Of a stretch of DNA of 64,000 nt, positions 37,752-40,023 are shown in pieces. Within the stretch, counting starts at the first letter, position 1. Every line of letters starts with the position of its first letter. Origin of the DNA: Acaryochloris sp. CCMEE 5410 (lineage in GTDB: Bacteria > Cyanobacteriota > Cyanobacteriia > Thermosynechococcales > Thermosynechococcaceae); the NCBI RefSeq assembly GCF_000238775.2, contig NZ_AFEJ02000002.1:434001-498000 (forward strand), given 5' to 3'. Below the pieces are notes generated by a model that worked only from the letters and a program-made list of their open reading frames with translations, was not told the DNA's origin and did no database searches. A program made the position numbers and the translations under genes.

Positions 37752-38495
37752 ATGTTTCATATTGTTGTATTTGCCACAACGGGTTTTTGGATGTATGCGA
37801 TCTTCGATTGCATCCGAAACGATCCAGATCGAAATGTTTGGATCTGGCTGTTGCTATTCTTTAACTATCTGGGTGCTGTCATTTATTTCGCGACGAGAAT
37901 GCTACCGCGAATGAATACATCTTCAGCTCCCAGCTACTTTAAACGCTGGACTAAAGGAAGAGAGTTACGAGCGGCCGAAGCTGCAGTCGTTAATATTGGT
38001 AAATCACACCAGTATGTTCAATTGGGTAACGTCTTGCTGGAGATGAGTAAGGTAACTCAAGCGGAGGAAGCCTTTCAAGAAGCCATTTCTAAAGAGCCCA
38101 ACCATCTCGATGCCTTATGGGGATTAGCGTCAGTGGCAACATCTGCCAAACGATGGGAGGAAGCTCAAGCTTATCTACAGCAGATTCTATCTCTTGATTC
38201 TGAATATAAGCGGGGCGATGCTTCCTTGCTGCTGGGTAAGGTTCTTGTCTCCAGTGAACAGAGAGAACTAGCAAAACCCCACCTCATTCAAGATATTAAA
38301 GCCTGGAGTCATCCTGAGGCAGCATTAATATTGGCTACGCTCCAAGCTGAAGATGGTGAGAAACAGGATGCCTACGATATCTTAAAGGCAATGCTGTCAA
38401 AACTGAAAGCTTGCCCTGAGTTCTATTACAGACAGCACCGCCATATCGCTAATAAAGCAGACCGAATGCTCCAGAGCCTAGAGAAGGAACTCTAG
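37752..38495 (+). CDS. TPR protein with PLDc_N-like membrane segment
   Basis: 247 aa from ATG 37752 (a TTG codon directly before is unlikely to be the start). Two N-terminal helices (FATTGFWMYAIFDCI and WIWLLLFFNYLGAVIYF) match the short PLDc_N membrane module. Then come about four tetratricopeptide-like helical repeats (for example VTQAEEAFQEAISKEPNH, RWEEAQAYLQQILSL). This suggests a membrane-tethered scaffold. The 270 bases upstream are A/T-rich with several small imperfect inverted repeats but no gene. A MITE-like element follows 11 bases after the stop. Confidence 0.8.
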   Translation: MFHIVVFATTGFWMYAIFDCIRNDPDRNVWIWLLLFFNYLGAVIYFATRMLPRMNTSSAPSYFKRWTKGRELRAAEAAVVNIGKSHQYVQLGNVLLEMSKVTQAEEAFQEAISKEPNHLDALWGLASVATSAKRWEEAQAYLQQILSLDSEYKRGDASLLLGKVLVSSEQRELAKPHLIQDIKAWSHPEAALILATLQAEDGEKQDAYDILKAMLSKLKACPEFYYRQHRHIANKADRMLQSLEKEL

Positions 38496-38506
38496 GAGAC
38501 AACCAT

Positions 38507-38636
38507 TAGACCTTATCGGAAATAAAATGGGTGAGAATAACTTCAAACGTCTATGTCGTAAGTCTTTTAGGTCGATTTTCCTCCAAAAATAAAACGCTTT
38601 CCCAGTAAGGTTTTCAGCTATTTCCGATAAGGTCTA
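38507..38636. mobile_element. MITE-like element with 18-bp terminal inverted repeats
   Basis: 130 bp. TAGACCTTATCGGAAATA (38507-38524) is matched by the exact reverse complement TATTTCCGATAAGGTCTA (38619-38636). The outermost TA at each end would be the target duplication used by IS630/Tc1-mariner elements, leaving 16-bp inverted repeats. The interior has no open frame. It sits between the ends of the convergent TPR and P450 genes, a harmless landing site. A very long-looped terminator is the less likely alternative. Confidence 0.7.
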
Positions 38637-38649
38637 GTTAATCCAAAAT

Positions 38650-40023
38650 TTAGCCGCCTAGGCGGGTAGCTAGCATAGGCACACCCCCTGCTGGCGTAAA
38701 GGTAATTCCCCGCCGAACGGGTTGAATAGGTTTTGAGCTGACCAATTGTAGGCTGGTTTGCCTGAGAATGGTGGCGAGCACTAATTTCATCTCAAATAGG
38801 GCAAATGCATACCCTAAACAGCGCCGATTACTCCCGCCAAAGGGGAAATACTCATAGGGTGAAAACTGGCGTTCCAAAAATCGCTCAGGTCGGAAGGTAT
38901 TGGGATAGGGGTAGAGATCTTCGCGGTGGTGCACTAGATAAATACAGGGGGTTAGCATTGCTCCTGGAGGCAGATCGTAGCCCATCACTCGTAGAGGTTG
39001 TTTGAGGGTGCGGCTAAAGGTAAACAATACCAGGGGATAAATGCGCAGCGTTTCTGAGCAAACTGCGCTGAGATAGGGGAGCTTGGCAATCTCACTCGGG
39101 TCTGTGTTTGGGGTGATATCCCTTAGCTCTGCTAATAATTTCGTCCGCACTTCCGGAACCTTATGGATCCAGTAGAAGGCCCAAGCCAACGCAGAAGCAG
39201 TGGTTTCATGACCAGCAAAAAGGAGAGTCATCAACTCGTCCCGAAGCTCGGCATCACTCATGGGTTCTCCCTGCTCATCTTGGGCAGCAAGAAGCAGGCT
39301 CAGAATATCTTGTCCCAATGGCTGTTGCCGCCGTTCCTGAATCTCAGCCAATAGCAGCTCATTGATGGCTTGTCGGCGTCGCAAGAATTTCCCCCATAAG
39401 CTCCAAGGGCCTAAGTCTTTTTGCAACCCGGTGAGAAAGAGATGGCTGGACCCCAAAGGAGTATCGAAGGTATGGAGCATCTCGTCCAGGAGCTGACTGA
39501 GCTGCTGAAATCGCTCATTGTTGTCAATCCCAAAGATGGTCCGAAGAATAACCCGAAGGGTAATTTCTTGGGTGGCTGAGCGCATCTCAAAGGGCTGATT
39601 TTGGGGCCATTCTTGGGAGATTTGGGTTGCGATCGCACACATGGATTCACCATAGGCCCGCATCCGCTCACCATGAAAGGGAGGCATCACCAATTTCCGC
39701 CGTTTTTTATGGGCTTCTCCTTCTAACAGCAGGAGACCTTGATCACCCGTAATCGGAGAGATGATCTGATTACCACTGACGCTATCAAAGAGGCTGGGGT
39801 CAGTGGTAAAGACCTGCTCAATAGCATCCGGGTGACTAAGGATCACAAATGGAGGAAACCCAAAAGACCGCCCTTCAAAGATGTCACCATACTCAGCATA
39901 AGCGTTCTCTAAGTAGGGAATGGGATCGGCTATGGCTCGTATCGTTTGCAGCCACGTCGGAACCTGGACCCGAGGAATGGGTGCAGAGGGAGTAGGGGCA
40001 AGAGTAGGCGCTGTAGCAGTCAT
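38650..40023 (-). CDS. Cytochrome P450 (CYP110-like)
   Basis: 457 aa, full length, no membrane anchor. The I-helix is LLFAGHETTASALAW, the ExxR motif is in CSETLRIYPLV, and the heme loop FPFGGSNRRCLGYAFALFEMK contains the Cys ligand. The Pro-rich N-terminus and overall style are those of the cyanobacterial CYP110 group, some of which oxidise fatty acids and alkanes (family knowledge). Redox partner genes are not adjacent. The 220-base gap upstream shows no further gene. Confidence 0.93.
   Translation of the reverse strand: MTATAPTLAPTPSAPIPRVQVPTWLQTIRAIADPIPYLENAYAEYGDIFEGRSFGFPPFVILSHPDAIEQVFTTDPSLFDSVSGNQIISPITGDQGLLLLEGEAHKKRRKLVMPPFHGERMRAYGESMCAIATQISQEWPQNQPFEMRSATQEITLRVILRTIFGIDNNERFQQLSQLLDEMLHTFDTPLGSSHLFLTGLQKDLGPWSLWGKFLRRRQAINELLLAEIQERRQQPLGQDILSLLLAAQDEQGEPMSDAELRDELMTLLFAGHETTASALAWAFYWIHKVPEVRTKLLAELRDITPNTDPSEIAKLPYLSAVCSETLRIYPLVLFTFSRTLKQPLRVMGYDLPPGAMLTPCIYLVHHREDLYPYPNTFRPERFLERQFSPYEYFPFGGSNRRCLGYAFALFEMKLVLATILRQTSLQLVSSKPIQPVRRGITFTPAGGVPMLATRLGG

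Follow-up and report, generated by a model that had tools for sequence, protein, structure and literature searches.

A perfect inverted repeat between two convergent genes raises the question of whether the DNA it encloses is a mobile element or a selected hairpin, and, if it is mobile, what type of transposase moves it. The locus lies at positions 38507-38636 of the window, the 64,000-nucleotide stretch of Acaryochloris sp. CCMEE 5410 DNA analyzed here. It is flanked on the left by a + strand frame that ends at 38495 and on the right by a - strand frame, named from its sequence as a cytochrome P450, that ends at 38650. A preliminary description placed a 130-bp MITE-like element between these genes, with perfect 18-base inverted repeats, TA at both outer ends, a non-coding interior, and a presumed dependence on an IS630/mariner-type transposase. 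Its reading of the gene arrangement is correct, and the locus is indeed a MITE, a short non-coding piece of transposon-derived DNA. Its boundaries and the family of its transposase are different from those first proposed.

The 18-base repeats are real, with 18/18 complementarity between 38507-38524 and 38619-38636 across a spacer of 94 nt, and a search of the window for the 16-mer that tolerates three mismatches matches only these two repeats. However, the element proper is 128 bp long (38508..38635, drawn on the + strand with arbitrary orientation), a span shared in length and ends by 12 genome copies, and its perfect terminal repeats are 17 bp long. The left repeat, AGACCTTATCGGAAATA (38508..38524, + strand), is identical to the left end of an insertion sequence discussed below, and the right repeat (38619..38635, - strand) is complementary to it at 17/17 positions. 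The T at 38507 and the A at 38636 fall outside the element and belong to flanking target triplets, ATT on the left (38505..38507) and AGT on the right (38636..38638). The left triplet occupies the position at which exact 3-bp duplications are found in 10 of the 12 copies, and the right triplet is one base off it. No open frame of note exists within the 128 bp, which bears out the claim of a non-coding interior.

A genome search, which the preliminary description had suggested for the repeat, uncovers further copies. With the 130-base sequence as query, 12 are found on contigs C1, C2, and C5 of the 8.09-Mb genome (23 contigs). Eleven of these, including the window copy, are intact and have 95-100% identity to the window copy, and the twelfth, on C5, has been split by later insertions. 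When cut at AGACC...GGTCT, the intact copies are all exactly 128 bp and differ by substitutions only. The repeat pattern itself, with up to two mismatches allowed, has 31 matches in the genome versus 6 for the same pattern read backwards, which is far above chance. The window copy is identical at all 128 of 128 positions to the copy at C1:1175068, and the variants that these two have in common are missing from the other copies, a pattern of substitutions that suggests recent movement. No full copies were found in 57 relatives or in 386 genomes sampled from the phylum, where only partial matches of 22-28 bp occur. The sole plasmid record with a copy is pREC2 of Acaryochloris marina MBIC10699 (95.3% identity).

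The sequences directly flanking these copies define the target. With the elements cut as above, the triplets on the two sides are identical in 10 of 12 copies; they read AAT, ATT, or ACT (ANT), and the match extends for exactly 3 bp in the copies measured. The pREC2 copy is likewise flanked by AAT/AAT. Two copies have mismatched triplets, the window copy (ATT/AGT) and C1_3571008 (AAT/CAT). The CAT of the latter is best explained by a subsequent mutation, since the corresponding empty site in a relative, G004, reads AAT. The mismatch in the window may have arisen in the same way, and one such mutation would be its simplest explanation. If instead the family were an IS630/Tc1/mariner-type MITE with a TA target duplication, then the TA that borders most copies on either side would be its signature. 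The dinucleotide is present as described, but it arises where the T of ANT abuts the terminal A of the repeat, and the flank that actually matches is the 3-bp ANT. The family illustrates cleanly how a TA-type mariner signature can be mimicked when an ANT duplication lies beside a terminal A.

Empty sites in other genomes of the genus point to the same target. The joined flanks of C1_3571008 align to G004 across the junction for 300 columns without a gap (94%), and G001 also spans this junction (83%). The joined flanks of C1_3097050 match G001 without gaps (86%), those of C1_301244 match G002 (81%), and those of C1_1175068 match G001 with gaps (77%). The site of C1_30005 is apparently empty in G001, with 91% identity across the junction. 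The ungapped empty sites demonstrate that those copies are insertions, and their length is that expected if 128 bp and a single triplet are missing, not that expected from a TA duplication. The G004 site reads AAAATGAATGG, with TA absent at the junction. Empty sites, which the preliminary description had proposed looking for in relatives, therefore exist for other copies of the family but were not found for the window site, where none of the relatives searched has both flanks conserved. The best of these, G001, aligns only from inside the P450 gene, about 32 bp past the junction. With mismatched triplets and no empty counterpart, the window copy is judged an insertion from its membership in the family.

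The MITE at L058:509-636 (G000:C1:3571008) breaks up an open frame. At the empty site of G004 the same frame is uninterrupted (135 aa), so that this copy is an apparent natural gene disruption.

A search for a complete element bounded by this repeat, expected from the preliminary description to be of the IS630 type, returned an IS5-type insertion sequence instead. This 1,055-bp element (C1:3946415-3947469) is the single full-length copy in the genome, where it is accompanied by several truncated relatives, and it is flanked by AAT/AAT. Its ends match the MITE repeat at 17/17 positions on the left and 15/17 on the right. Apart from the MITEs, the end sequence occurs in the genome in this one insertion-sequence family; a two-mismatch match at C1:4320499 that belongs to neither is probably due to chance. 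The transposase frame runs for 313 codons without stops. It matches the Pfam models DDE_Tnp_4 (E = 5.7e-28, positions 1-158 of 158 in the model, above the cut-off) and HTH_Tnp_4 (E = 1.5e-13), as well as an NCBIfam IS5 family model with a score below that model's cut-off (E = 2.2e-20). No solved structure was matched by its sequence. A full insertion sequence 94.8% identical to this one is present on pMB07 of Acaryochloris sp. 'Moss Beach', the sole plasmid record with one. The ANT triplets, the empty sites, and an IS5-type transposase within elements that have the same ends together exclude a TA-duplicating IS630/mariner origin, which we regard as exceedingly improbable.

The window MITE is very probably a non-autonomous element that depends on an IS5-family transposase of the DDE_Tnp_4 type, supplied in trans, which acts on the common 17-bp ends and duplicates a 3-bp ANT target. 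In this sequence-based model, a transposase encoded elsewhere in the genome, as the preliminary description had correctly supposed in finding none nearby, would bind the 17-bp ends and insert the MITE at ANT triplets, doubling 3 bp. The mover would be the transposase of C1:3946415-3947469 or a recently active sister, and the window copy would have arrived by the same route as the others. Present activity is uncertain, since the right end of the one complete insertion sequence departs from the repeat.

The relation between the interiors of the two elements was also considered. A simple internal deletion of the 1,055-bp insertion sequence was rejected as the source of the MITE, as the interiors have no convincing similarity beyond the ends. 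Their only match, 13 bp long, requires a variant present in the window copy and was taken as chance.

Alternatively, the inverted repeats could form a hairpin under selection, for example a terminator that serves both convergent genes or an RNA element between them. The position of the repeats is suited to this role, and the fold of the 130-nt strand is strong (z about -5 versus shuffles on either strand). However, the copies are dispersed at unrelated places with target duplications, and in six of 12 copies (the 11 intact ones and pREC2) one repeat arm carries a change for which the other arm does not compensate. Three of these six changes do not even leave a G-U pair. A promoter and terminator scan found no terminator-like site or promoter, and the window MITE has no matches in Rfam. 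A selected hairpin is accordingly very unlikely. The preliminary description had named the lack of any second copy, together with conservation of the hairpin at orthologous positions, as favoring such a structure, and this combination did not occur; its basic identification of a MITE is upheld by the multiple copies, by their target duplications, by the empty sites found for copies other than this one, and by the complete insertion sequence that has these ends. At this locus, the MITE fills a former gap of about 23 bp between the two genes and probably has little effect, with a secondary effect on the two flanking transcripts possible.

The divided copy on C5 (L045:688-1308; G000:C5:14187-14807) is split by two further elements. 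The first is roughly 370 bp long with G-rich inverted ends (about 781-1156). The second (L045:1165-1276) is 112 bp long, reads AGACCTCTTGCA...TGCAAGAGGTCT, is flanked by AGT/AGT, and looks like a member of a second, larger MITE family, with 30 matches in the genome and others on several Acaryochloris plasmids. Its first 33 bases have three matches near IS5-like transposase fragments (C2:782128, C1:268875, and C1:2803536).

The end sequence of the window family occurs more widely than the element itself. An exact scan of GTDB genomes for the 17-mer returned at least 100 stretches from many phyla. Some of these (e.g., L079, L088, L119, L121, and L148, among L068-L167) have an inverted partner 98-159 bp away and matching ANT triplets. 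Another, L090 from Leptolyngbya foveolarum, has the end sequence beside a transposase with 72% identity over 278 residues to the one described above. Many of the 100 stretches are probably chance occurrences because they were preselected for the 17-mer and inverted partners were allowed up to four mismatches. The idea that one end sequence is common to widely dispersed IS5-type MITEs, through horizontal transfer or cross-mobilization by related transposases, is tentative and, on balance, rather doubtful.

Comparison with known systems places the partner insertion sequence in the IS5 family and probably in its ISL2 group, the target triplet being the one character by which the group is assigned. 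An ANT target triplet is a mark of ISL2, for which no paper stating this rule was found in the literature searched. The partner resembles such elements in its HTH_Tnp_4 and DDE_Tnp_4 domains, its length of about 1 kb, its short terminal repeats, and its duplication of a 3-bp ANT target, whereas the window MITE differs from them in having no transposase. No description of the present MITE was found in the literature searched, and this otherwise ordinary IS5-type family, now added to an Acaryochloris-type cyanobacterium, is apparently undescribed. It is similar to the Nezha MITE (Zhou et al. 2008, cited in PMC10969869) in being a cyanobacterial MITE. It also resembles MITEAba12 (PMC6382973), a bacterial element that is likewise non-autonomous and derives from an insertion sequence, although in a different host, Acinetobacter.
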